A model generated the notes under the pieces. The model did no database searches. It was not told where the DNA came from and saw nothing but the letters and a program-made list of their open reading frames with translations. A stretch of DNA of 55,198 nucleotides from Anaerolineales bacterium (GTDB lineage: Bacteria; Chloroflexota; Anaerolineae; Anaerolineales; RBG-16-64-43): NCBI GenBank assembly GCA_016928575.1, contig JAFGKK010000016.1, positions 1-55,198 of the forward strand, written 5' to 3'. Shown piece after piece: positions 7,640 to 21,859 of the stretch (position 1 is its first letter; the number at the start of each line of letters is the position of its first letter). Both the position numbers and the translations under genes were made by a program.

Positions 7640-7801
7640 TCACCAACGGGTAATTGCAAACCCGATGACGAACCCGCCCAAGAGGCTCAGCGCGGCAAAT
7701 GGAAGATAGGGGCGGCTCCGGATAAGGCCGGCGAGCATGAATTCAGCCGTTTGCAGCGAGCGCAAGGCGGTCCATAAGCCGAACTTCCGAATGGCATACA
7801 T
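7640..7801 (-). CDS. 53-residue single-span membrane protein, last gene of ftsZ operon
   Basis: A short open frame starting MYAIRKFGLWTALRSLQTAE and ending in a hydrophobic segment (LPFAALSLLGGFVIGFAITR, about residues 33-52). It starts at an ATG preceded by GAGAGGAG with 8-nt spacing. That Shine-Dalgarno overlaps the stop codon of the 72-residue gene upstream, so translation is probably coupled. The N-terminal half is basic and amphipathic, and the predicted span is at the C-terminus. No family is recognised. Position as the fourth gene behind ftsZ suggests a role at the membrane in division or envelope biology, which is inference. Confidence 0.7.
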   Translation of the reverse strand: MYAIRKFGLWTALRSLQTAEFMLAGLIRSRPYLPFAALSLLGGFVIGFAITRW

Positions 7802-7815
7802 GAATGTTGCTCCTC

Positions 7816-8034
7816 TCATTTGGAAGTGGAGATGCGCAGGATCCGGCCTTTCTCATCGGCGACGACTCGCACCACGCGCGCCATCGGACCGGCGGGAGTT
7901 TTCACCTGCGCCTTGTACACCAGGGTGCACCGGTTTCCGGCTTGCGAAACGGAGGGGCGGGCTCCGCGCATTTCCGGATACTCCCGGTAGACCCTTTTGT
8001 TGACGGCTTCGACAACGGATGGCTCAATTCCCAT
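7816..8034 (-). CDS. 72-residue conserved-looking hypothetical protein
   Basis: A small soluble protein starting MGIEPSVVEAVNKRVYREYP. The second half (AQVKTPAGPMARVVRVVADE) looks like a small beta sheet. There is no signal peptide or membrane span. GGAGGAAGCC sits directly upstream of the ATG, and the gene begins 21 nt after the ftsZ stop, so it is cotranscribed with ftsZ. Function unknown. Confidence 0.75.
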   Translation of the reverse strand: MGIEPSVVEAVNKRVYREYPEMRGARPSVSQAGNRCTLVYKAQVKTPAGPMARVVRVVADEKGRILRISTSK

Positions 8035-8055: not shown

Positions 8056-9438
8056 TCAAGAAGCAGCATGAAAGGAACGCCCGGCAGTCGGCGATTCCGG
8101 CGGGCGCATCCGGCGCCGCAGAAACGCGGGGATTTCCAAATCTTCGCCGGAACAGATCGCCGTGGGAGTCATTTCCTCTGTGACGATCGTGCCGGTTTCC
8201 ACGGGGAAGCTTCCCGGGCGGGCGGCCGGACCCGGATCCTCCGCGGGGCCGGGGGCGGCCGTGCCGACGATCGGCCGCGACCGGTTGGGCGTACGCGCCG
8301 GCGCCGGCTGAAGCAACTGCGCCACCGGGCGGCGGACGGCCGCCGCGGGTTGTTCCGCCGCCAGCCGGGAGACGGGCGCGGCGGCGGAAGCCGGCGAACC
8401 TTCCGGCTTCGAATGCTTGAGCAGGATGTGCGAGGCGCCGGCGATCACGCTTCCCAGAGGCTGTCCGCCGACGCCGGTGGCGACGATGATCACCTGCACC
8501 CGGCCCTTCATCGCCGGATCGATCGCCGCGCCGAAGAAGACCTCGGCATTGGCGGCGTCGGCCGCCGCTTCCTGCATCGCCCGGTGCAACTCGGCCAATT
8601 CCAAATCCTCTCCGCCGGTGAAGTGCACCAGCAGGCCGGCGGCCGTTTCCAGCGACCCGATCTCGAGCATCGGATTGTGAAGCGCGGACCGAACGGCGAG
8701 GATCGCCTTGTCGGGCCCGGTGCCGTGCCCCACGGCCAGGCATGCGCCCCCCGCGAGCTGCATCAGCGAGCGCACGTGCGAGAAATCCACGTTCACCAAT
8801 CCCGGTCGGGTGATCAGCTCGGCGATCGCCTGCACGCCCTGGCGCAGGACATCGTCCGCCAGCCGCAGCGCCACGTCGAAGGTGGTTTGTTTGGGCGCCA
8901 CCTCAAGCAGACGGTCGTTGGGAATCGTGATCAGCGTGTTGCAGAAGGGGCGCATGGCTTCGATCCCTTCCTGCGCCGCCTGCATCCGCCGCTTGCCCTC
9001 GAACGAGAAGGGCAGGGTCACGATCGCGACGACGATCGCGCCTTGGGCGCGGGCGATCTCGGCCGCCACGGGGATGGCGCCCGTCCCGGTGCCGCCGCCC
9101 ATCCCCGCGGTCAGAAACACCATGTCGGCGCGCTGGAGCGCCTCCGCCAGTTCGCGGGAGCTTTCTTCGGCGGCAGCCCGGCCGACGGCGGGATCCCCGC
9201 CGGCGCCCAGCCCGCGCGTCGTACGCGGCCCGAGAGCCACCTGGCGCGGCGCCTGAGAGTGGTTCAGCGCCTGGTGGTCGGTATTGCAGGCGATAAACTC
9301 CACCCCGCAGACGCCGAGTTCGATCATCCGGTTTACGGCGTTCGAGCCGCCGCCGCCGAGGCCGACGACTTTAATCACCGTCTTGGGATGAGATTCGTTT
9401 TCCGCTTCCGGGGTCTCGAAATCGTTGGGAAAAATCAT
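8056..9438 (-). CDS. ftsZ: cell division GTPase FtsZ (T7 loop variant)
   Basis: A 460-residue tubulin-like GTPase forming the division ring. VVGLGGGGSNAVNRMI lies at about 25-39, the tubulin signature GGGTGTG at 114-120, and NDRLLEV at 174-180. After an Ala/Pro-rich linker the C-terminal peptide DLEIPAFLRRR (433-443) matches the FtsA/ZipA-binding tail. The T7 loop reads NVDFSHV (216-222): the first catalytic acid (Asp218, E. coli Asp209) is kept but the second (E. coli Asp212) is His221. AGAGGAG precedes the ATG and overlaps the end of the upstream gene. No ftsA, ftsQ or mur genes are adjacent, so this is not a dcw cluster; it may be a second FtsZ paralog, which the window cannot show. Confidence 0.95.
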   Translation of the reverse strand: MIFPNDFETPEAENESHPKTVIKVVGLGGGGSNAVNRMIELGVCGVEFIACNTDHQALNHSQAPRQVALGPRTTRGLGAGGDPAVGRAAAEESSRELAEALQRADMVFLTAGMGGGTGTGAIPVAAEIARAQGAIVVAIVTLPFSFEGKRRMQAAQEGIEAMRPFCNTLITIPNDRLLEVAPKQTTFDVALRLADDVLRQGVQAIAELITRPGLVNVDFSHVRSLMQLAGGACLAVGHGTGPDKAILAVRSALHNPMLEIGSLETAAGLLVHFTGGEDLELAELHRAMQEAAADAANAEVFFGAAIDPAMKGRVQVIIVATGVGGQPLGSVIAGASHILLKHSKPEGSPASAAAPVSRLAAEQPAAAVRRPVAQLLQPAPARTPNRSRPIVGTAAPGPAEDPGPAARPGSFPVETGTIVTEEMTPTAICSGEDLEIPAFLRRRMRPPESPTAGRSFHAAS

Positions 9439-9450
9439 GGCGGTCTCCTC

Positions 9451-10680
9451 TCACGTGCGTTCGGCGGCAAGGTATTCCACGCGGCACCCGCTGTCGCGCA
9501 ATCGCAGCGCGGCGGCCGCGGCGGGAGCGCCGCCGAGAATGGTGACTTTTTCCGCCTGGCTGGCTTCATCGATGGAAAAGCCGCAGACGGGCTGAAATGC
9601 CTGCATGTAGGTCCGCAGCGATTCCCAGGCGGCACCGGATAGAATTCCCGGATCGGCGGGCAGGAGCAGATAATGCCGCAGGGATTTTCGCCCGGCCTCG
9701 GCCGGCTGCAGCCTTTTGGACAGGGCGCGCCGCTTAAGGGAATCAACAATCGGCAGAGCGGATCCATTGTTGCGAAACCAGGCTTCGGAAGCTTCCGGGG
9801 CGCCGTCGTCCGCCGATAAAATCCAAAAGCACAGGCAAAGAACCGGCGCGGCGAATCCCCCGGCGGAGGCGATCTGGGCCGCCTGCAGGTTGACATCCGC
9901 CTGGCGCAGAGGATCGACGGGGGGATACTCCGGATCCGTCAAATCGCCGACCGTCGCTCCCGCCTTCAATCCGATCAGCGGCAGGCTGGTGCCGAGCGTG
10001 CGCCGGACGACGTCATCCGTCCAAAGGTACCCCTGGAAACCCAAATGATCCTGCGATCCAGGCGTGGTAAGGTAGGGGCGGGCCTCCGGCCAGCGGGCGG
10101 GGCCGCCCGAGCCCCAATCGAGAGGGCGGTTGCGGGCCGAAAAATCACACGCAACGGCCAGGTTCCTCGCCAAGTCACCCTTTCCGCAATGATCCAAACC
10201 GGATAGGAAAGCTTCCAAAAAAGCCAAACTCCAGTAATTTCCGCAAGGATCCAGCATCGGAAAAACCGGGGTCATCCCTTCAGCAAGGACCGCTTCGGCG
10301 ACGGGCGGGAAAACCGAGAGGAATTGCCGCACGGGGGATGGGAAGCTTCGGCCGCCGGCGACCCAAGAGGATACAAGATTGGGTGCGGGGAAGGGGGCGA
10401 TAAAATGCGCGCCGGCGCGCCGGTAAGCCCGGAAAATGGAATAGGCGACCGCCGGCGGAGGCTGGATCGGTTCACGGTCCAGGAGGATGATGGGTTCGAC
10501 TCCGGCTTCCGTCAACATCCGGATAAATCCTTCGGGGATGGCTTGCGAGATCGATGTGGAGAGAACCAGCCACCGCAGGTCCATGGACAGCAATTCGGGG
10601 AGCCACAACTCCGCATCTTTGACACGGAAATGGCGGTCGTCCTGGAAATAATGGATCCCCAATCCTGGAGAGGTCTTCAT
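9451..10680 (-). CDS. TIM-barrel-like hypothetical protein, first gene of ftsZ operon
   Basis: About 409 residues from the ATG at 10680 (MKTSPGLGIHYFQDDRHF). The alternation of strands and helices (DLRWLVLSTSI, GVEPIILLDREP, GAHFIAPFPAPNLVSSW, GNYWSLAFLEAFLSG) resembles a glycoside-hydrolase-type (beta/alpha) barrel, but I see no diagnostic catalytic pair. There is no signal peptide, so a cytoplasmic location is likely. An in-frame upstream ATG at 10743 would add 21 residues; AAGG 6 nt before 10680 favours the shorter form. The stop lies 12 nt before the ftsZ start, and the ftsZ ribosome site overlaps it, so the genes are coupled. Function unknown. Confidence 0.75.
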   Translation of the reverse strand: MKTSPGLGIHYFQDDRHFRVKDAELWLPELLSMDLRWLVLSTSISQAIPEGFIRMLTEAGVEPIILLDREPIQPPPAVAYSIFRAYRRAGAHFIAPFPAPNLVSSWVAGGRSFPSPVRQFLSVFPPVAEAVLAEGMTPVFPMLDPCGNYWSLAFLEAFLSGLDHCGKGDLARNLAVACDFSARNRPLDWGSGGPARWPEARPYLTTPGSQDHLGFQGYLWTDDVVRRTLGTSLPLIGLKAGATVGDLTDPEYPPVDPLRQADVNLQAAQIASAGGFAAPVLCLCFWILSADDGAPEASEAWFRNNGSALPIVDSLKRRALSKRLQPAEAGRKSLRHYLLLPADPGILSGAAWESLRTYMQAFQPVCGFSIDEASQAEKVTILGGAPAAAAALRLRDSGCRVEYLAAERT

Positions 10681-10894
10681 GGCAGCCTTTTTCTTTTCTA
10701 CCCCCTTTGGATGCAATTTACATGCCAGGCGTTGTTTTACCATAATTTAGAGGAACGCCTGCTCTTCACCCATAATCGGAGATCCAGACACCCGAGATAG
10801 ACATCAGCATGACCGACGGCGGTTGGACCGGACCCCCTCATTGAGCAGGCGGTCGGGGTGACAAACTACGCGTGAAAAAAGCGATAAGCTTCCT

Positions 10895-10923
10895 TTGACA
10901 AGCGGAAAAAAGGCGGTTATTAT
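10895..10923 (+). promoter_or_regulatory. sigma-70-type promoter of lipoprotein gene 1
   Basis: TTGACA at 10895-10900, a 17-nt spacer and TATTAT at 10918-10923 give a near-consensus housekeeping promoter. Transcription would start near 10930, leaving a leader of about 70 nt before the ATG at 11003. The rest of 10681-10894 holds no supported gene. Confidence 0.75.
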
Positions 10924-11002
10924 TGGTAAATCTATGAGGGGGATCATGAATTCTGGGCTCTCATAGAAATTCTCATCACAAGGAATTAAAAGGAGGGTCA
11001 CA

Positions 11003-11632
11003 ATGTTCTCGAAGAAATCCGTCTTCGCGGTAGGACTCATGCTGTTCGCCGCCTCCATGGCGTGCAGCAATCCGATCACGGATTACCTGTCCACCCAAAC
11101 GGCGGTGAAGCAGACGGCCACCGCGACGATGTGGACGCCCACCCCGACCGACACGCCGACGCCCACCCCGACCGACACGCCGACGCCCACCCCGACCGAC
11201 ACACCGACGCCCACCCCGGATCCACGTTATCAGGAAACCTATGGTTTGTTCGATTTTTCCTACGTGCCTCCTCGGGGATGGAAAAAGAATTCCGGCGAGG
11301 ATCTGATGGCCTGGGAAGGCCCCGGCAACACCGCATTATATTTTTATACGAACCGGGTGAACGCCTCGGCCAACGAGATCGTTGATGTGCTCGTAGTTTT
11401 GTATTACGAAGAATACGGTTTCGAATGCGAGAGTCAAGGCGATTTTGAGATCAACTCCGGTTTGGACGGCGCCTGGATGACGTGCGATCTACCGAACAAC
11501 ACCCTGGTCCAGGAGTACATCGTCTCAGAGAAAGGTAAATATGTGGATGCCGTCTACTTGCGCGAAGACGGAGAGGATGAAGACCAGGATCCGGTCGTGG
11601 AAGATTGCATCCGGTCTATTGAATTCGATTAA
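11003..11632 (+). CDS. lipoprotein with Thr-Pro stalk (paralog 1)
   Basis: A 209-residue exported lipoprotein. The signal peptide MFSKKSVFAVGLMLFAASMA is followed by Cys21 of the lipobox, then SNPITDYLSTQTAVKQTAT, which is shared with two neighbours. A Pro/Thr/Asp stalk follows (three copies of PTDTPTPT), then a globular domain of about 130 residues with no recognised family. AAGGAGGG precedes the ATG. The gene has its own promoter (10895) and terminator (11665). The stalk suggests surface display away from the membrane; the ligand is unknown. Confidence 0.85.
   Translation: MFSKKSVFAVGLMLFAASMACSNPITDYLSTQTAVKQTATATMWTPTPTDTPTPTPTDTPTPTPTDTPTPTPDPRYQETYGLFDFSYVPPRGWKKNSGEDLMAWEGPGNTALYFYTNRVNASANEIVDVLVVLYYEEYGFECESQGDFEINSGLDGAWMTCDLPNNTLVQEYIVSEKGKYVDAVYLREDGEDEDQDPVVEDCIRSIEFD
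11134..11219 (+). repeat. 24-bp in-frame tandem repeat encoding the Pro-Thr stalk
   Basis: Units starting GACGCCCACCCCGACCGACA occur at 11134, 11158 and 11182, with a partial fourth at 11206. The exact 24-nt period keeps the reading frame and adds eight residues per unit, so copy number can change stalk length without breaking the protein. Confidence 0.85.
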
Positions 11633-11664
11633 GTTGTCTACAACAGCACGAGTCTAATCGTCGT

Positions 11665-11707
11665 CCCGCACAGGCGGTCGGTTTTTGGGCGCCTGTGCGG
11701 GATTTTT
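11665..11707 (+). terminator. intrinsic terminator after lipoprotein gene 1
   Basis: A 12-bp perfect stem, CCCGCACAGGCG at 11665-11676 with CGCCTGTGCGGG at 11690-11701, followed by A and five T. It lies 33 nt past the stop codon. Confidence 0.9.
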
Positions 11708-11763
11708 ATGAGGCAAGGCATCCCGAAGCCGCTTATACAAAACCCTTTTTCAAGAAACAGACG

Positions 11764-12354
11764 ATGAAGAAAATTGGATTTCTCTTTCCCGTTTCCTTGT
11801 ATTTTCTCATATCCGTATCCTGTTCCAACCCGATCGCGAATTATTTCTCTACCCGGACCGCAGTCCTGCAGACGGCTACGGAGACGATGTAAACTTCGAC
11901 CCTGACCAAAACACTGACCAACACGCCGGAACCGTGCTACATCGAACTTGGCGGATCGGTGGGCTTTTCCTCCGCGCCGTCGAAGGAGTGGAAGTGGAAT
12001 ACCGGCGGGGAACTCATGGGCTGGAACGGACCTGGAGGCGCCGAGTTGCGTTTCTCCGGGGAAAGGTTTGAGTTTGCTCCGGAAGAAATCGCCGGACTCG
12101 TAGGGGAGTATTACGAAGAAGAATACGGCGCCGAGTGCAAATCCAACGGAACCTTTGCCAACGACGCCGGAGTGGAATCCGCTTGGATGACGTGCATCGT
12201 TGAGCTTGCGGACGGCACCGCTCGGTTGTCCTCGTACTTTTTCTCGGACGGGGACGGCCACATGATCGTCGCCACGTAAGGGCGGGATGAGGACTGGGAA
12301 GAGGGACAAGACAAGATAGCGGAAGATTGCCTGAGGACGGTGAGATTCGAATAG
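11764..12354 (+). pseudogene. broken lipoprotein gene (paralog 2), two in-frame TAA codons
   Basis: The frame begins MKKIGFLFPVSLYFLISVSC with a lipobox-like Cys and the shared SNPIANYFSTRTAV module. It then meets TAA at about 11890-11892, where paralogs 1 and 3 have the Trp codon of ATMWTPTP. The same frame stays open and homologous to paralog 1 (KEWKWNTGGELMGWNGPGGA) up to a second TAA at 12277-12279. It continues as GRDEDWEEGQDKIAEDCLRT to a TAG at 12354, matching the C-terminus of paralog 1. No frameshift is seen. TGG to TAA needs two substitutions, so a single sequencing error is unlikely. The ribosome site is weak. Confidence 0.8.
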
Positions 12355-12460
12355 AACCGGCGGGAGTTAACATCCTTCGCGCAATTCCGGAGCACCGGGT
12401 TATTCGTTAAGGATGGGAGTGGATCTTCGCAAACACACCAAGTTTTAAGGAGACGACTCA

Positions 12461-13207
12461 ATGAAAAAAGCTTTGTTCCTGTTTCCGGCAGCCATGATCT
12501 ACCTCGTTTCCGTATCCTGCTCCAACCCGATCACCAGCTACTTCTCCACCCGGACGGCGGTGATGCAAACCGCAACGGCGACGATGTGGACTCCGACCCC
12601 GACCAACACGCCCACCAACACGCCGACCTTCACGCCGACCTTAACCCCCACGCCGGATTTCCTCTTCGCCGACGATTTCGAGGATCCGGATTCCGGATGG
12701 ATGGAGGACGAGGACGACTACGCGCTGTTGGAGTATTCAGACGGCGGATACCGCATGAAAATAAAAACCGACTACCTGATCGCTTGGTCGTTCGTCCCGG
12801 GCGAGGAGGATTACGGCGACGTGCGGATCGAAGTCGAAGTCGAGAAAATCGGTGGGCCGAAATCGACCGAATTCGGAATCATGGCCCGCTTCGTGGACCG
12901 CAATAATTTTTACCTCTTCGCGATGACCGCCGACGGGTACGCGATCATCGAGAAGAAGGAAGACGGGGAATACAGCGGCATATCCGGCGACGAATTCGAA
13001 GAAGTGGACGGAATCGATCCCAACGGGGTGAACCAGGTCTCCGTCGTATGCCGAGGCGAAGAATTGGAATTGTACGTGAACGGAAATCTGGTCCTGAGCG
13101 CGACGGATGATTCCTTCGAGGAGGGTCAGGTCGCGTTGGCGGTCGGAACCTTCGACATCGCGGGGGCGGATGTTTTGTTCGACAACATGTTCATCCGGCA
13201 GGCTTGA
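12461..13207 (+). CDS. lipoprotein with Thr-Pro stalk and LamG/concanavalin-like domain (paralog 3)
   Basis: A 248-residue lipoprotein. The signal peptide ends at Cys20 (VSVSC; Ser rather than the usual Leu at -3), followed by the module shared with paralogs 1 and 2 and a PTNTPTNTPTFTPTLTPTP stalk. The C-terminal domain (FADDFEDPDSGWMEDEDD, then FGIMARFVDRNNFYLFAM and LELYVNGNLVLSATDD) looks like the concanavalin-like/DUF1080 jelly roll found in carbohydrate-binding proteins. TAAGGAGA precedes the ATG. The N-terminal module is shared but the C-terminal domain differs from paralog 1, showing domain swapping behind a common anchor. Sugar binding is inferred from the fold only. Confidence 0.85.
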   Translation: MKKALFLFPAAMIYLVSVSCSNPITSYFSTRTAVMQTATATMWTPTPTNTPTNTPTFTPTLTPTPDFLFADDFEDPDSGWMEDEDDYALLEYSDGGYRMKIKTDYLIAWSFVPGEEDYGDVRIEVEVEKIGGPKSTEFGIMARFVDRNNFYLFAMTADGYAIIEKKEDGEYSGISGDEFEEVDGIDPNGVNQVSVVCRGEELELYVNGNLVLSATDDSFEEGQVALAVGTFDIAGADVLFDNMFIRQA

Positions 13208-13271: not shown

Positions 13272-16001
13272 CTAGCGGGAGACGGCAATCTTAACCACGC
13301 GGCCGGAACCGTCCAGGCTGATCTTTGCAAATTGTCTGATCGCCTGCCCGTGGGCTTCGGATTTCCGGTCAAGGGCGACCACCCAGGCCGGAGAGCGGGG
13401 TGTGGACTGCGGTTTCCGGCCGGGCGAAGCATCTTTGGCTTCCCCGGAAGGAACTCCTTGCCCTTCCTGCGGATGGAGAAACCGGATTCGGCTGTCGCCC
13501 ATCCCGGGCAGGTAATGCGCCATGGCCTTTTTAAGCTCCAACTGGACCTTCGGCGATGGTGAGCTTCCGTTTTCGACAAAGTCTTCCTTGGCAAAAATGG
13601 TTTTGATCCGCTCCGGGGAGAAGCGCCGGCGCGGAATGCCCCTTTGACCCCGTTTTGCAGAACCGGTTTCCGAAGCATAGAGCGGATCGCCGAGCAAAAT
13701 GAACGAGATCAGGGTTTTTTGGTCTTCCGGATCCAGAAATCCCTGGCGCCGGTTCATTTCCTCGGTGAAGGCCAGTTTGGCCAGACGCAGGGATTCGCCG
13801 GCCGGGACGCCCGAAAGGCAGTTTTGCAGAAACAGGTGCGCCAGCAGATCGGCGGCGATCAACGGCGCCGCTGCGGCTCCGTAACAGATCTTGGTCGATC
13901 CGACCAGCGCCCGGGTTCCGGCGCCCAGAAAAGCGATGCTCAGCGCGTCGCGAACCCCTTTGCCGCGGATGTTGGCTCCGTAGCACGCCTCGGTGAATAC
14001 GACCTGCGGCACGTTCCCGGCTTCTACAACCTGGGAAGGATTCAACACGATCGGAAATTCGGCGTCGGCCGGACCCTTCCCGCTGCTTTCCCGCTGGCCG
14101 AGCCATTGCGGCCCGCGTTCCAGTCCGTGCAGGTTGAAGTAGGAATACTTCGGTCGGGCCAGGAATTCCTTCGGAAGGGTGCCGCTGTGGATGGGCGGGG
14201 CGACCAGCAGGGAGGCGGTGGAGGAAACGGGCCGGAACACGTTCCCCGACGCCCGCTTCCAAACGGCGGCGGTGCAGGCGGATCCCTTCCGGAAACGCGC
14301 CGTCCCGGGACGCAGCAGTGTGCGAATTACCCACCACAAGGATTCGATGACGGTTTTCCGGGCGGCCGACTCCCGCTCCGCGATCCTGCCCAACGTCTCC
14401 AGCAGGAAAACCGCCTTGGAATCCGGCGGCGTGGGGATCCGTCCGACTGGCCATTCGGGGACGAAATAATTCTCGTCGCGCGCAGCATACGGGTTGTCGG
14501 AGGGAACGTCGGCGTCGTCGTCGTCCGCCGGATTGGGAAGCCGGTGGAAGGGAATCACCTCTTCCCCGCCCACGATCAGAAGCGCGCCGAGCATTTCACT
14601 TTTTTCTTCGAGGAAAGCGCAGATCCCGCTGATGAGGGTTTTTACCTGCCAAGCGTTGGCGGGATCCACCGGCGAAAGTCCGAACGCCTTTAGGTTTTCG
14701 CTGTCGTCGACATCCGCCAAGTAGGCGGACCATCCGCCCATCCCGCGTTTGCTGCGAAGAATACTTTGCAGGCGGTCGTCGATCTGCGGAAGGGCGCCGG
14801 CGCCGTAGATAGCCGTCAGGCGCTTGCGGCTGGTGAGGATGAGGTAGGCCGGCTGGCGGGAATCCTTTTTACGGGTGCCTTTGCGCACCCTCAAGCGGCC
14901 GGCCACCCGGTCCAATTCGCGCCGCAGATCGTCCAGCCCGGAATCTTCGCGCCGGGCGGTCGGCGTCGTCGTTTGGGTTTTCGGCGCCGGAGGTTCCGGC
15001 TGGCGGACCGCGCCGGCATGGTTGTACGGTCCGGATGTTTTTTCGTCGGAAGAATCGAATGGGCCGGGGAATAATTCACCGGGGATCGGCTCGATCACTA
15101 CCGGTCCGGACGGAGATAACGGCGGCGGATTCTCGGCATCGAAATCGGGAAACCTCAGGACGGGAATGTCGGCCGGAAGGTCGGGCGGCTCCGGGCCGGG
15201 AGGGCCGGAGGCAAGCCGATTCCATCCGGCGGCCGCGGCCACTTCGGCAGGCAGGGCGGTGGAAAGCTCGGCCGTCATCTGCGCTGGCCATAACGAGCGG
15301 TAGGGATTGAGCGCGCCCAGGTAGCGGTCGGCCACTTCGCTTGCCGGATCCGCGACCGAGACCGCGTGCAGGAGTTCGACGCCTTGGGCATTGCGCCCTG
15401 TGGAAAAACAGGATTGCGCCATCAACAGAAGGAAGGCGGCGCATCCCGGCCAGCGGGTGCGGTACTCGCCTCCGGCCGAAAGTACAACGGCGTGTTCCGA
15501 AAGCCGCCAAAGAGTCTGAAGATGGACGAGCGCCGGAAGGGCCTGGTCCGCCCCGGCGCACAAGACCGTCTCGGCGGATAGGCGGGCTTCCTGCCAACGG
15601 CCGTCCTTCAACAGGCGCAGGGAGGTTTGAAGAGGATCGGCCCAATCCGGGAGACCGGCGGCGGTGGAGACGGCGGCGCCCAAAGCGAACAAACATCCGT
15701 CCACTTCGGCGGACAGCGCGCTGCAACCGGTTCTGCGGAGCAGGGCGGAGAGTGTGCCGTAGGCTTTGCCGGACTCCGGATCGGCTTCGATCACCTGCCG
15801 AAGGTGTTGGACGGCTTGGTCGGTTTCGCCCGTCCGCAGGCAGGCGTCGGCCAACCGGGCGCGGACTCGGAAATCTCCCGGCCAGCGCGCCAGCCACTCC
15901 AAACAGGCGCGTTTTGCGTATGCCGCGCCCGTCGCGGCGGAAGAAGCGGCCGAAAGCGAAAGCGCGGCGTCAACGGCGGCAAGGAATACTGAGCGCTCCA
16001 C
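13272..16001 (-). CDS. TPR protein with clan CD (gingipain C25/caspase-fold) cysteine peptidase domain
   Basis: A 909-residue protein. Residues 1-230 are helical TPR-like repeats, 260-350 a Pro-rich linker, and about 385-780 a peptidase domain resembling family C25. Supporting motifs are LIVGGEEVIPFHRLP (475-489), SDNPYA (501-506), the catalytic His in YFNLHG (His625), the catalytic Cys in VFTEACYGA (Cys673), FLGAGTRALVGS (691-702) and ILLGDPLYA (768-776). There is no signal peptide or propeptide, so it should act inside the cell, unlike secreted gingipains. It starts at GTG, 3 nt after the stop of the giant TPR gene, with GAGGTGA upstream, so the two are coupled. Substrate and activation signal are unknown. 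The dyad call rests on motif reading. Confidence 0.85.
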   Translation of the reverse strand: MERSVFLAAVDAALSLSAASSAATGAAYAKRACLEWLARWPGDFRVRARLADACLRTGETDQAVQHLRQVIEADPESGKAYGTLSALLRRTGCSALSAEVDGCLFALGAAVSTAAGLPDWADPLQTSLRLLKDGRWQEARLSAETVLCAGADQALPALVHLQTLWRLSEHAVVLSAGGEYRTRWPGCAAFLLLMAQSCFSTGRNAQGVELLHAVSVADPASEVADRYLGALNPYRSLWPAQMTAELSTALPAEVAAAAGWNRLASGPPGPEPPDLPADIPVLRFPDFDAENPPPLSPSGPVVIEPIPGELFPGPFDSSDEKTSGPYNHAGAVRQPEPPAPKTQTTTPTARREDSGLDDLRRELDRVAGRLRVRKGTRKKDSRQPAYLILTSRKRLTAIYGAGALPQIDDRLQSILRSKRGMGGWSAYLADVDDSENLKAFGLSPVDPANAWQVKTLISGICAFLEEKSEMLGALLIVGGEEVIPFHRLPNPADDDDADVPSDNPYAARDENYFVPEWPVGRIPTPPDSKAVFLLETLGRIAERESAARKTVIESLWWVIRTLLRPGTARFRKGSACTAAVWKRASGNVFRPVSSTASLLVAPPIHSGTLPKEFLARPKYSYFNLHGLERGPQWLGQRESSGKGPADAEFPIVLNPSQVVEAGNVPQVVFTEACYGANIRGKGVRDALSIAFLGAGTRALVGSTKICYGAAAAPLIAADLLAHLFLQNCLSGVPAGESLRLAKLAFTEEMNRRQGFLDPEDQKTLISFILLGDPLYASETGSAKRGQRGIPRRRFSPERIKTIFAKEDFVENGSSPSPKVQLELKKAMAHYLPGMGDSRIRFLHPQEGQGVPSGEAKDASPGRKPQSTPRSPAWVVALDRKSEAHGQAIRQFAKISLDGSGRVVKIAVSR

Positions 16002-16004
16002 GGG

Positions 16005-19000
16005 TCACCTCGCGTCCACGGATTGGGGAGCGATTCCGTACACCAGGGTCAAAGCCATCACTCCCGAGAGCAGTTTGTGCGCGGCCAAGTTGCCGGGCTC
16101 GATCTGGACCGCTTTGCGCAGTTCGTCGGCCGCTTCCGCATAAGCCCGGAGGTTCTTGTGCACGACGCCCATCCGGTAGTGCAACTCCGAATTTTCGGGC
16201 GCGAGCTTCATCGCCGCGCGGTACGAATCGAGCGCCAGATCCCAGCGCTGTTCGGCCTCATACGTCAGGCCGCATTCGAGGGCGGTGCGGAAATCCTGCG
16301 GAGAGATCTGGCGGGCTTTGGCGAGCGCCGCCAGGGATTGATCCAGCTGACCCATCTTGCGGGCGATTCGTCCGAGCAGGATCCAATAGTCCTTTTTTCG
16401 CGGAGCGAGTTCGGCGGCTTTCCGTCCGGCGCGCAGGGCGTCCTCCAAGCGGCCGCATTCCAGCAGCGCTTCCGCCAGACGGTAGTGGGCTTCGTCGATC
16501 TCCGGGTGGGCCTCCAGCAGCGCCTGCATCGCAGCCGCCGAACGGACCGCCGCGCCGGTTGCGGTCCAAAGCCGCGCCAGGCGCAGGGCGGGGACGACCG
16601 GATCGCTCATCTCGGCGGCCGCGTGATCCAGATGGCGGATCGCCTCGGGCAGACGGCCCTCCGTTTCTTCCACTTCGGCCAGAACAAGGCGGGCCTCGGC
16701 CGGATGCCCCTCGCCGCCGAAAACGTCTTTGGCGGTGGAGCGGGCTTCCTCGCGCCGGCCAAGCGCCAACGCCGCGCGGGCTTTGCCCAGCTTCCAAGCA
16801 AGGACGGCGCCGGGTTTCTCCAGGGCCAGGGAGAAAGCCTGGTACGCATCCGCCGGCCGTCCCGATTCCATCGCCGCTTTGCCGATTTCGGCGTGTAGTT
16901 CGCCGCTTTCATCGGTGAGGAGCGATTCCGCCTTCAGGAAGTGCTTCAATGCGGTCTGAGGATCCCCGTCGCGCAGCAATGCCTGGGCGAACCGGCGGTG
17001 GTAGACGCCGTTGAAAGGAACCAATTCGGCGGCGCGCTGGAGGCAGGGCAGTGCGGCGGCGCGGTCCCCCATGGCCTCGTTCCATACGCCGAGTGCGTAG
17101 TGCCAATCAGCCGCCTTCGGCGAAAGGCTAAGGGCGTGGCGCAGTTTGTCGGTGGCTTCGCCGCGGCGACCGATCTCGTACAAAATCGCCGCCGAGACCG
17201 CATGCGGAAGAGCTTTGTGAGGCGCCGAGCGGCTGGCATTCTCGAGTTCCGCCAGGGCGGCGTCGAGCCGTCCGGCTTTCCTTTCGCAGATCCCCAAGAG
17301 GACCCGGCCGGTTTCCCTGCCCGGACGAAGGTTTACCGCGGCTTGGGCGGCCGATCGGGCGCGGTCGATTTGACCGGCGCGCAGCCAGGCCTGCGCAATC
17401 GAGGCGGCGTTTTCCGGAGCAGGACGGGTCTGGTTGATCCGTTCCAGGGATTCGATCGCCTTTGGATCGGGCTCGTCGAAAATCAATCCCGCGCGCCCGG
17501 ACAGCGCCCGGACCGCGTCTTCGTCCGCGCCCAGCGCGGCGGCGCGGGCGAGGGCGGCGCGGGCGGTTTTCGCGGCGGTGGGGTCCGCCGGCCGATCTTC
17601 GGCGAATGCCATACGGGTTCGGGATTCGGATTCGGCCTGCGACACAATCGCGGCGGCCAGAAGGACGTGCGCCTCCGGATCGTCCGGAGAGGATCCGCAG
17701 AGGGATTCCAGGCACCGGACAGCGGCGGGATAGTCTTCCAGCGCCAGCGCCGCACGCCCGGTCAGCCCAAGCGCTTCGGAGGATTCGGCGCAGAGTTCGC
17801 AGGCTTTGGCCAGGGCGGATGCCGCGGCGGCGGAAGACGCCTCCTCCCAACGGCCGGACAGCGCGTCATTTTCCATCTTCGACGCAAGCGCGGAGGCCAG
17901 CAGAGCCCAGGTGCGGGCGTCTTCGGGATGGGCTGTCGCCGCTTGTTTGCTTGCCGCAACCGCCTTTTCGAATTCGCCCTTTTCAAATTCGATCCTCGCC
18001 CGCAGGACAAGGCCGTCTGCGCCGGCTGCCGATGCGCCGGATTCTTTCCAGGCGTCGGCCCTTTGCAGATCGCCGGCGCGGAACGCGGCTTGGGCCGCTT
18101 CAAGCGCCAATCCGGAATCGGACGGCGCCTGAGCCATCGCCCGTTCGTAGTGCGGAAGCGCTTCCCGGCTCAGGCCGACCGCCGCCATATTCGAAGCCAA
18201 CCGGCGGAGGAGGGCTGGATTTTTGGGATCCAACTGGACAGCCTTTTTCAGAAAAGCGATCGCGGCGGATTTTCTGCCGTCCGCCCACAGCGCCTCGGCG
18301 GCGGAGGCCAAGGGGCCGGAATGCTCCGGATCCGCGTCGCTCGCTCGGCGGAACATTTCGAACGCCTGCGCGTTTTTTCCGCAGCTACGCAGGGCGGCGC
18401 CCAGTTCGGTCAACAACGGAACGGATGCGGGATTCCGCTCCAGCGCCGATTCCAAAACCGCCGCGGCTTCCCCGAATTCCTTCAGGGCGGAAAGAAGGCG
18501 AGCGCTGCGCAGCGCGATGCTCGCGTCTTTCGGCCCGGCCAATTCGAGGGCGCGGGCGATCTCGGAACGGGCTTGCGCGCCGTCCCCGGCGGAAAGGAAG
18601 ATTTCCGCCATCCGGATCGGCGGTTCGGGGTCGGCGGGAGAGAATTCCGACGCCTGCCGCAAAGCTTCAACGGCTTCCTCGGGACGGTGGATCGCAATCA
18701 AGGATTCGGCCAGACCGGAGAGTGCGGCGACGTCGTCCGGAGAATCGGCGAGGACTTTCCGGAAAGCCGCCAACGCATCTTCATGCAGGCCGGAGGCGGC
18801 CAACGCCTCGCCCAACCGGCCGCGGATGCGGGAATCCGCCGGAGAAATTTGAAGCGCAGCCTGCAGATTGTGGACCGCCGTGGGATGATCCCCCGAACGC
18901 AGCATCGCCTCGGCCAATCCGAGATGCGCGTCGACCTTCTGCTCGATCGTCATGCCGTCCGCGGATTGCAGAAGGGAACCGAATTCCGAGGCCGCCTCCG

Positions 19001-21212
19001 GAAGCCGTCCGTCGAAAACCTTGGCCCAGCCGATCAGCGATTTCAGCCGCTGATCTTCGGCGCCGGATTGCAATTTCTCGGCCTGCGTCAGCAGGGCGAG
19101 GGCCCGGCTCACGGCAGCGGGATCGGGTTCCGGATTGCGGCGGTGTTCCCGGAGCAGGAGTGAGCCCAGCTCCACGAGCAGATCCGCGGAATCCGGCTCC
19201 GCGGCCACGGAGCGTTCGAGCGCCGCCCGGGCTTCCGCGGTTCGGCCGAGGGATTCCAAAAGCGCAGACTTTTTTTTCACGGCGGCAACCGATCCGGGCG
19301 AGACGGCCAGCGCCCGGTTCAGATACTCCTCCGCATCGGCGGTCTCCTGAATCGCCAGGGAGGCATCCGCCAGCGACATAAGGATCCCCATATCGTTGGG
19401 GCGGGAGGAAAGCGCGCGTTCCAAATGCGCGGCGGCTTCCCGAATCCGGCCTTCGATGAGCAGCCCCGATCCCAAGGCGGAAAGCAAATCCGCCGGATCG
19501 GAAGCGGCTTCGATCCCGGCGCGCAGGGTGGTGGCGGCCGCCTCGCGGTTGCCTTTGGAGGAGTGCAAATCCGCAAGCGCTTTCCAGGGAGCGGACGCTT
19601 TCGGAGACAGACGGGTTGCCTTCTGCAGCGCGGCGAAAGCTGCTTCTTCGTTACCCTGCGCCAGGTCAAGCAATCCCAGGATGGCGTACGCTTCTCCGCA
19701 ATCCGGAGTGAGTGCGAGACAGCGCTCGGCAGCCTGGCGGGCTTGCCCCTCATCCCCGGCGGCATGGCTGTTCCGGGCTAAACCGAGGAGGAGGGCGGGG
19801 TCGTCGGCTGTTTTTCCGGATAGGATGCGGTAATGCTCCGCGGCTTCCTTGGGCCTCTTCTCGTGTTCGGCGGACCTAGCCAACAGAAGCAGGGAGCGGG
19901 AATCCTCGGGATTCAGGTGCCAGGCGGCGGAAGCGGCCGCCGAGCAAGATTGCCAATCACCGATCTGGGCGGTCAGATCCGCCAGCCGGGCGAAAACCTG
20001 CGGATGATTCGGCCGGGAACGGCTTAACGCATGGAGGATCTGCGCCGCCCCGCGCAAATCACCGCCTTCGGCCAGGACGTCGGCCAAGTCCATCTGCAGC
20101 CGCGGATCGGAAGCGGAGGACGCCTTGGCGCAGGATTGCCGTGCGGCTTCGAGGGCTTTGTCCGCCGCGCCCGTTTTCATCCGGATGCGGGCCACGAGCA
20201 GGAGGTCCTCGGGATCCTCGGTGGTGGAGGGAATGGCCTCGATGGCTTCTTCGAAACGGTCCAAACCGGAAAGCGAACGGGCGATCCCGGCGCGGATTCC
20301 GGCGGCGCCCGGGTCGAGTGCGCCCGCTTCCTGCCAGAAGGAAAGGGCGGTGGTGAAGTTGCCCTCCTCCTCGGCGGCGCGGGCCGATTCCATCAGGGTA
20401 TCCATCAGCATCCGCTTGGCGTCCCGCCGGGCGGCGTCCGCTTCGGGAAGCGCCGCCGCCGGCTCGCCCGCCAAGCGAAGCATCCGCGCGCGGAGGATTC
20501 GTTGCCCGGGGTTAATGGTGGCTTCCGAGAAGACTTGCGATTTGGCGGCGGCCGTGGTCCCCAAACGCCGGGCCAATTCCGGCTCGCCCGACGCGGCCGC
20601 GCCTTCGCAAATCGCCGTGGCGGAGGAGAGGCCGACGGCCGGAAGGCAGCGTTCGAGGATTTCCGCCGCTTGCTCCAAAGACTCGTTCGCAAGGACGGTC
20701 TCAACCAGCCGCGGGGCGGACTCGGGCAGCAACTCCGCCAGGCGCTCGATGACCTTCGCGGTATCGGCCGCGATCGAATAGAGGCAGATCCAAAATAGGA
20801 CCGGGGCGTCCGACCAGCCTTCCATGGCTGCAGGATTGTCGAGATGCCCGGTTGCTGCCAGCGCCGCGAGGGCGGCCTGATCCAGCGCCGGATCCGTTCC
20901 GCCGCGCAGCTCCTGAAAGGCGGTCTCCCCCCGGTCCAGGCTGGAATCCGGAACCTGCACCGTGGACGCCCCGCCTGTGGCGAAACGGGCGCGGAGGTAC
21001 TCGGTTTCCGATGCCGACAGCAGACCCAGCCAACCGGGCCGCCACCGGAGAGAATCCGATCCGGCGAAAGAAACGGCTTTTTTCAGGAAGCCCTCATCGT
21101 GCAGGACGGACCACAGCGCCGCAACCCGACGGATTCGACGGATGATCCCGGGACGGACCTCGCTGGGCAGGGCGGTTTCGAGTGATTGGAAGACCTGGTT
21201 GTCGGAGAGCAT
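16005..21212 (-). CDS. giant tetratricopeptide-repeat protein (1735 residues)
   Basis: Starts MLSDNQVFQSLETALPSEVR. After an N-terminal helical region of about 190 residues with no repeat match, almost all the rest is TPR units of about 34 residues (for example AALQKATRLSPKASAPWKAL and SYRAAMKLAPENSELHYRMG), by eye several dozen, forming a long superhelix. It is very Ala-rich. There is no catalytic domain, signal peptide or membrane span, so a cytoplasmic scaffold or sensor is likely. GAGGT precedes the ATG. It lies 37 nt downstream of a two-helix membrane protein gene and 3 nt upstream of the TPR/C25 peptidase gene, so the three form one transcript. A scaffold that docks the peptidase, perhaps at the membrane, is inference from this arrangement. 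Confidence 0.9.
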   Translation of the reverse strand: MLSDNQVFQSLETALPSEVRPGIIRRIRRVAALWSVLHDEGFLKKAVSFAGSDSLRWRPGWLGLLSASETEYLRARFATGGASTVQVPDSSLDRGETAFQELRGGTDPALDQAALAALAATGHLDNPAAMEGWSDAPVLFWICLYSIAADTAKVIERLAELLPESAPRLVETVLANESLEQAAEILERCLPAVGLSSATAICEGAAASGEPELARRLGTTAAAKSQVFSEATINPGQRILRARMLRLAGEPAAALPEADAARRDAKRMLMDTLMESARAAEEEGNFTTALSFWQEAGALDPGAAGIRAGIARSLSGLDRFEEAIEAIPSTTEDPEDLLLVARIRMKTGAADKALEAARQSCAKASSASDPRLQMDLADVLAEGGDLRGAAQILHALSRSRPNHPQVFARLADLTAQIGDWQSCSAAASAAWHLNPEDSRSLLLLARSAEHEKRPKEAAEHYRILSGKTADDPALLLGLARNSHAAGDEGQARQAAERCLALTPDCGEAYAILGLLDLAQGNEEAAFAALQKATRLSPKASAPWKALADLHSSKGNREAAATTLRAGIEAASDPADLLSALGSGLLIEGRIREAAAHLERALSSRPNDMGILMSLADASLAIQETADAEEYLNRALAVSPGSVAAVKKKSALLESLGRTAEARAALERSVAAEPDSADLLVELGSLLLREHRRNPEPDPAAVSRALALLTQAEKLQSGAEDQRLKSLIGWAKVFDGRLPEAASEFGSLLQSADGMTIEQKVDAHLGLAEAMLRSGDHPTAVHNLQAALQISPADSRIRGRLGEALAASGLHEDALAAFRKVLADSPDDVAALSGLAESLIAIHRPEEAVEALRQASEFSPADPEPPIRMAEIFLSAGDGAQARSEIARALELAGPKDASIALRSARLLSALKEFGEAAAVLESALERNPASVPLLTELGAALRSCGKNAQAFEMFRRASDADPEHSGPLASAAEALWADGRKSAAIAFLKKAVQLDPKNPALLRRLASNMAAVGLSREALPHYERAMAQAPSDSGLALEAAQAAFRAGDLQRADAWKESGASAAGADGLVLRARIEFEKGEFEKAVAASKQAATAHPEDARTWALLASALASKMENDALSGRWEEASSAAAASALAKACELCAESSEALGLTGRAALALEDYPAAVRCLESLCGSSPDDPEAHVLLAAAIVSQAESESRTRMAFAEDRPADPTAAKTARAALARAAALGADEDAVRALSGRAGLIFDEPDPKAIESLERINQTRPAPENAASIAQAWLRAGQIDRARSAAQAAVNLRPGRETGRVLLGICERKAGRLDAALAELENASRSAPHKALPHAVSAAILYEIGRRGEATDKLRHALSLSPKAADWHYALGVWNEAMGDRAAALPCLQRAAELVPFNGVYHRRFAQALLRDGDPQTALKHFLKAESLLTDESGELHAEIGKAAMESGRPADAYQAFSLALEKPGAVLAWKLGKARAALALGRREEARSTAKDVFGGEGHPAEARLVLAEVEETEGRLPEAIRHLDHAAAEMSDPVVPALRLARLWTATGAAVRSAAAMQALLEAHPEIDEAHYRLAEALLECGRLEDALRAGRKAAELAPRKKDYWILLGRIARKMGQLDQSLAALAKARQISPQDFRTALECGLTYEAEQRWDLALDSYRAAMKLAPENSELHYRMGVVHKNLRAYAEAADELRKAVQIEPGNLAAHKLLSGVMALTLVYGIAPQSVDAR

Positions 21213-21249
21213 CGGCTACCTCGCGGCGGGGCGCTTGCGGAGCGGCGGT

Positions 21250-21579
21250 TTAGAGAACTCCGGACGTGAGCCAATACGCGCCGGCCATCAAACCGACGCC
21301 GATCAAAATCAGAAAGGCGCCCACGCCGGCGGCGGTTTTCATCAACTGGTTCACCTGAGCCAAGATCTCGGTGATGCTCTCGGCCAGCGACGTCATGTCG
21401 TGGTTGAGGGCCCGTTTGCTCAATTCCGTGGACGTGCCCGCCAGAGTCCGCATTTCGCGGGTGAAACTGCGGCCGATAAGGATCAAAATCCCGGCCAGCA
21501 GGCAAATCAGGCCTGAACCGAGGAGGATCAGGATGATGCCGATCTGCAGATCCGGTTGGGTGATGTATTGGACGACCAT
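21250..21579 (-). CDS. two-helix membrane protein, first gene of the TPR/peptidase operon
   Basis: 109 residues from MVVQYITQPDLQIG. Transmembrane helix 1 is at about 12-36 (GIILILLGSGLICLLAGILI), a polar helical stretch at 40-82 (MTSLAESITEILAQVNQLMK) may be a coiled coil, and helix 2 is at about 84-104. GGGAGG sits 5-6 nt before this ATG; a longer frame starting at 21699 has no ribosome site. It may anchor the downstream TPR protein to the membrane, which is inference. No family is recognised. Confidence 0.8.
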   Translation of the reverse strand: MVVQYITQPDLQIGIILILLGSGLICLLAGILILIGRSFTREMRTLAGTSTELSKRALNHDMTSLAESITEILAQVNQLMKTAAGVGAFLILIGVGLMAGAYWLTSGVL

Positions 21580-21595
21580 GTTCGCCTCCCAAAAT

Positions 21596-21613
21596 GATTC
21601 TTCTGGAAGAATC
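21596..21613. promoter_or_regulatory. perfect 18-bp palindrome upstream of the TPR/peptidase operon
   Basis: GATTCTTC-TG-GAAGAATC has 8-bp perfect arms and ends 17 nt before the first start codon, just outside the ribosome site. It could be an operator or an mRNA hairpin. No clear promoter hexamers are visible with it. The remaining 21614-21859 holds no supported gene. Confidence 0.5.
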
Positions 21614-21859
21614 CTTGTGCAAATTGCGTGCCAGAGGGAGGAATCCCGTGAGATTACGGGGGCTGCGTGCCGGCTGCGAGGCCGGGCTTCCTTCTCCATT
21701 TGGCGGGACCGCCGTGGAGGCCGATGATTCCAAGCCTAAAAAAGGGGTTTGAAGCTGGTTGTGCCGCCATAATTGCTTGCCGCGGCTGATAGAAACCGCC
21801 GGAAGAACAGTCTTCAGACCGCGGCGTGGAGTGCTACTCGACCGATTACCAAAATGCCG

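Follow-up and report, generated by a model that had tools for sequence, protein, structure and literature searches.

The window, a 55,198-nucleotide stretch of DNA from an Anaerolineales bacterium, carries on its minus strand a gene set, conserved across an order of Chloroflexota, that suggests a protease system not described before, with a role in cell division or the cytoskeleton. The set comprises a two-transmembrane (2-TM) protein, a giant TPR protein and a TPR-bearing peptidase of C25/caspase fold, together with a glycosidase-like (GH-like) barrel, a divergent second FtsZ (FtsZ2) and two small proteins, SM and T30. We estimate at about one half the probability that the protease unit, tethered to the membrane, works with a slow-hydrolysing FtsZ2 as one functional module. 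If so, the FtsZ-based machinery known from this large and little-studied phylum would gain a dedicated protease, the divergent second FtsZ would have its purpose explained, and there would be, beside HetF, a bacterial case of caspase-fold proteolysis wired into division; the unannotated GH-like, SM and 2-TM genes become a testable set with predicted roles. A search of the open-access literature found no paper that connects FtsZ of Chloroflexota with a C25 or TPR protease.

The core of the locus consists of three ORFs on the minus strand (13272-16001, 16005-21212 and 21250-21699) separated by 3 and 37 nt, exactly as described in an earlier note that had read them as an operon for a membrane anchor, a TPR scaffold and a clan CD peptidase. 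Comparison of the relatives' loci bears out this conserved unit, the gene order TM-TPR-C25 being kept beyond chance in dozens of genomes, across this bacterial order and in scattered members of the wider phylum. The limits of the locus required revision: its 13272 end is right, but 21613, given as the other end, is not an in-frame start, and the ATG at 21579 is likelier, backed by relatives of ~105-110 aa. The interval was also too narrow, as the same strand continues past the peptidase gene with the GH-like TIM barrel, FtsZ2, SM and the small TM protein (10680-7640), so that the conserved gene set reaches ~7640. Within the order, TM-TPR-C25 has the GH-like, FtsZ2 and SM genes attached on its downstream or its upstream side, often together with T30; one arrangement is TM-TPR-C25-(GH)-FtsZ2-SM, and another, GH-FtsZ2-SM-TM-TPR-C25, is found in loci L041, L047, L145 and L143. 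Neighboring ABC-F, copper ATPase and two-component genes differ between genomes and were set aside.

The 2-TM protein (21250..21579, minus strand; 109 aa) displays on hydropathy plots two hydrophobic segments, at residues ~9-41 and 79-109, with a helical loop between them, and a homologue of similar length directly precedes the TPR gene in most relatives. The giant TPR protein (16005..21212, minus strand; 1735 aa) matches Pfam TPR_19 over 17 stretches (6e-79), has no TM or signal segment by hydropathy, and has its counterpart at the same position in relatives in TPR ORFs of 1680-2550 aa. The former is a probable anchor and the latter a probable scaffold: the 2-TM protein would tether a cytoplasmic TPR scaffold, which in turn would hold the peptidase.

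The peptidase gene (13272..16001, minus strand) encodes a 909-aa predicted cysteine protease, an assignment based on profiles, alignment, model and fold search and supported by fold and dyad. The protein starts with TPRs, as previously read (Pfam TPR_19, 5e-10; 12 confident helices at residues 3-217 of the model), and the numbering and integrity of its His/Cys dyad hold: the catalytic-type His625 (codon 14127..14129, minus strand; YFNLHG) and Cys673 (codon 13983..13985, minus strand; TEACYG) are unvarying in 40/40 aligned homologues, in which most residues of PSDNPY..DENYF.PEWPVGR are likewise invariant. Taken by itself, the window protein gives no Pfam match to C25 or CHAT, whereas the Peptidase_C25 profile matches 19 of 25 relatives (best 1.1e-17), with CHAT matching 7 of the 25 weakly and below C25 (best 2.7e-4). 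In the deep relative L082, the C25 match (8.6e-13) spans residues 372-725 and positions 24-371 of the 374-position profile.

When the peptidase alignment was searched by sequence alone against solved structures, neither gingipain nor CHAT was recovered, so that a fold search was needed. The AlphaFold2 model, of fair quality (mean pLDDT 67), has catalytic loops of low confidence (pLDDT < 50 at residues 486-515, 626-651 and 673-677), and in it His and Cys each follow a beta strand (619-623 and 667-670). Its top Foldseek match is gingipain K (4rbm, 8e-6), and VIA-align superimposes residues 571-781 on RgpB (4ief; Z 14.0, rmsd 2.9, 170 residues aligned) and on separase (Z ~13 (13.0), ~160-170 residues aligned), in line with the caspase/gingipain fold proposed earlier. 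Together, the relatives' C25 matches, Foldseek and VIA-align give good support to a clan CD fold, and the peptidase is a divergent C25/caspase-fold protein. It shares with the C25 family (gingipains; PorU-like) the profile matches of its relatives, the dyad, the PSDNPY...WPVGR region and the fold; gingipains, however, are secreted virulence proteases without TPR, whereas the window peptidase has an N-terminal TPR and, by hydropathy, neither signal nor TM segment. Separase (C50) similarly has a clan CD domain preceded by alpha-helical repeats, but it is a eukaryotic cohesin protease whose likeness to the window peptidase is seen in structure.

The next conserved gene (9451..10680, minus strand; the ORF could also begin at 10743) encodes a 409-aa GH-A-like protein modeled as a TIM barrel (pLDDT 81), for which Foldseek returned GH5 (6mpa, 2.4e-6) and other GH families. 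Where a catalytic Glu pair is expected (NEP and GEN/GET), the window protein has APN and KAG. The NEP/GEN-type pair is kept in five deep-phylum members (L078-L080, L082 and L083), and one or both Glu are lost in the GH-like members of FtsZ2-bearing genomes; the window protein is thus probably a pseudo-glycosidase. The GH-like gene is linked to the peptidase gene across the phylum, and the barrel may join the protease unit, a functional link that rests on co-inheritance. In two deep relatives, an Amidase_2 + DUF5719 protein adjoins the active-type GH (L079:5582-8266 and L080:3195-5942).

FtsZ2 (8056..9438, minus strand; 460 aa) is a divergent FtsZ paralogue that scores 377 bits against the NCBIfam FtsZ model TIGR00065 (cut-off 295.2). 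In the tree, FtsZ2 is monophyletic apart from canonical FtsZ (100/100), and the clade persists after adding other duplicated Chloroflexota FtsZ; a general FtsZ duplication in Chloroflexota was rejected as its source, the other second copies sampled grouping with canonical FtsZ and keeping the T7 Asp. In the T7 loop of the window FtsZ2 (NVDFSHVR), a His codon (8776..8778, minus strand) replaces the catalytic Asp (E. coli D212). Among 31 FtsZ2, the equivalent residue is His in 22, Asn in 3, Ala in 2 and Asp in 4, i.e. Asp is lost in 27/31, whereas canonical FtsZ has it in 31/31. Note that the four FtsZ2 keeping the T7 Asp, one of which (L089) is poorly aligned, count against an FtsZ2-protease module. 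E. coli FtsZ D212A retains ~7% of GTPase activity (PMC8142252), and the D212N variant serves as a stable polymer (PMC12754632); on these precedents, replacement of the Asp predicts that FtsZ2 probably hydrolyses GTP slowly. A third, partial FtsZ match in the same genome (G000:C9:16512-17144; 174 bits, 251-aa frame) may be a pseudogene or reflect a contig edge or contamination.

In most FtsZ2, the FtsZ C-terminal peptide (LDIPAFLRR) is retained; in FtsZ this peptide serves division adaptors. Its retention speaks against a cytoskeleton outside division, in which FtsZ2 would act in cell shape, filament cell-cell junctions or envelope/carbohydrate organization and the peptidase would mature or turn over its parts. 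Such a role would nevertheless accord with the presence beside FtsZ2 of a well-conserved canonical FtsZ, with the fast evolution of FtsZ2 on long branches of the tree, and with the GH-like partner and LCP-like-looking neighbors (by eye; no Pfam match), which hint at the envelope. It also has a parallel in Bklc with BtubAB of Prosthecobacter (PMC5372463), an operon of a TPR protein and a tubulin-family filament with a membrane link that works outside division, but where the protease is absent and Btub is a tubulin, not an FtsZ. We consider this explanation possible, though rather unlikely.

After FtsZ2 lies the gene for SM (7816..8034, minus strand; 72 aa, ending ...STSK), which is, as a protein of its own, a copy of the domain at the C-terminus of the peptidase (~residues 810-909; 13275..13574, minus strand; ending ...VSR). 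SM and the last ~100 residues of the peptidase are homologous by hhalign (probability 98.1, E 9.8e-14). Members of the SM family, encoded after FtsZ2, are 72-100 aa long, and a Ser-Arg/Lys end is found in 23/27 SM and in 31/38 peptidases, truncated or very divergent ones included in the count. Gingipain-type enzymes cleave after Arg/Lys, which makes a putative product-like docking of these ends an attractive idea; another is that they bind in a TPR groove. Pfam and PDB searches of SM gave isolated weak matches only: fvmX3, in one member (0.014), and ribosomal protein L29 (0.0018), the latter judged to be chance. Further along the strand, T30 (7640..7801, minus strand; 53 aa) belongs to a family (family HMM, 9e-12) with one TM segment by hydropathy.

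We then compared the distribution of these genes. The peptidase is single-copy in 49-50 of 61 order-level genomes (G050 matches only at 20 bits), and its homologues are patchy elsewhere in the phylum. Among the 45 genomes of this sample that are at least 90% complete, 37 have peptidase, GH-like and FtsZ2, and 8 have none of them; SM is found in 35 of the 37. One genome, G058, was scored FtsZ2-positive because its sole FtsZ sits between GH and SM. The Fisher value for this co-occurrence (4.6e-9) ignores shared ancestry, because of which there are only ~4-5 independent co-absences (families f3, f5, f11, f12 and perhaps f15). The two halves are distant from each other in many genomes; in few-contig genomes G024, G036, G041, G048 and G059, they lie 150 kb to 1.1 Mb apart and both are retained; linkage alone is therefore insufficient to account for co-inheritance. 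The best reading is that the module is vertically inherited. Family f11 (G014, G027, G039, G051 and others) is without the module as a whole and has one FtsZ.

Outside the order, TM-TPR-C25 occurs mostly with GH, and most of these genomes have a single canonical FtsZ. The protease unit can thus do without FtsZ2, which looks like a later-added partner of an older unit; the original role of that unit may have been different from the FtsZ2-linked one. This existence without FtsZ2 would also fit the two modules being mere co-inherited neighbors whose proteins do not act on each other. Against that reading stand their retention when far apart and joint loss in several lineages, the domain shared by SM and the peptidase, and, in a locus from another order of the class (L089), a degenerate FtsZ homologue without GGGTGTG (10103-11362; Pfam Tubulin 9.6e-16) that lies 54 nt after the C25 gene; we regard mere neighborhood as quite improbable.

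The earlier note had compared the three genes to Craspase and suggested an effector-like sensor system. The likeness to the Craspase TPR-CHAT protein (Csx29) lies in the combination of TPR and caspase-fold protease, but Craspase requires Cas7-11/gRAMP and CRISPR, none of which was seen in the window on first reading. A protease of defence or of regulated cell death, stopping division via FtsZ2 upon stress or infection, as Craspase acts, would also be in keeping with the weak CHAT matches in 7/25 relatives and the weak one-member fvmX3 match of SM (E 0.014). However, the peptidase is single-copy and widespread in the order, and the patchy pattern of defence islands is not seen. PADLOC gave no match beyond noise for the peptidase or the 2-TM protein, and for the partners only generic TPR matches and one to CARF at noise level (0.014); phage sequences contained no match to the peptidase, and plasmids only C25 matches at 24-30% identity. 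With nothing close in PADLOC, phages or plasmids, we did not retain the defence reading, which we hold to be improbable; the co-inherited FtsZ2, pseudo-glycosidase and SM point instead to cell division or the cytoskeleton.

The best precedent for a protease unit working with FtsZ2 is HetF of Anabaena, a CHAT + TM + TPR protein reported at the divisome and cell-cell junctions, with reported protease activity on PatU3 (PMC8406250, PMC12288457). HetF is reported to bind FtsI and not FtsZ, which counts against the FtsZ2 analogy. Both systems combine a caspase-fold domain, TPR and a membrane anchor, a likeness at the level of the clan fold. HetF, however, is one polypeptide with CHAT, whereas in the window TM, long TPR and TPR-C25 are spread over three genes and the domain is of C25 type; dedicated FtsZ paralogue, GH and SM partners are not reported for HetF. 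By analogy, the module would resemble HetF in action while being built differently, and we do not file it as a HetF member.

In Anaerolineales-type genomes, the protease unit would act with FtsZ2, perhaps by direct interaction, FtsZ2 being expected to polymerise and to hydrolyse GTP slowly. SM and the peptidase's own C-terminal domain may compete for or dock in one site, perhaps the active site or a TPR groove, and their shared domain and conserved Ser-Arg/Lys end suggest that they control the protease in this way. As output, a protein of division or of the cytoskeleton would be cleaved in a regulated, HetF-like manner at a membrane site marked by FtsZ2. A narrower scheme of separase-like logic, in which a stable FtsZ2 polymer with poor GTPase activity holds the scaffolded protease until exchange of SM for the peptidase's own C-terminal domain releases it, so that a division protein is cut and septation timed, appears unlikely to us.

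Two sets of further genes interrupt the conserved order in some loci. A ~250-aa single-TM family lies between FtsZ2/SM and the 2-TM gene (L041:3268-4041, L047:3270-4028 and similar loci); its labeling as a degenerate LCP protein was by eye only, with no match in Pfam, and was not used as evidence. In the window, two to three short lipoprotein-like genes on the plus strand (11003-13207), with SCSNPI..Y.ST.TAV..T followed by a TPTPT linker, split the peptidase gene from the GH-like gene; this insertion is absent from L034, L037, L042 and L043, and such genes occur in this genus/family only.
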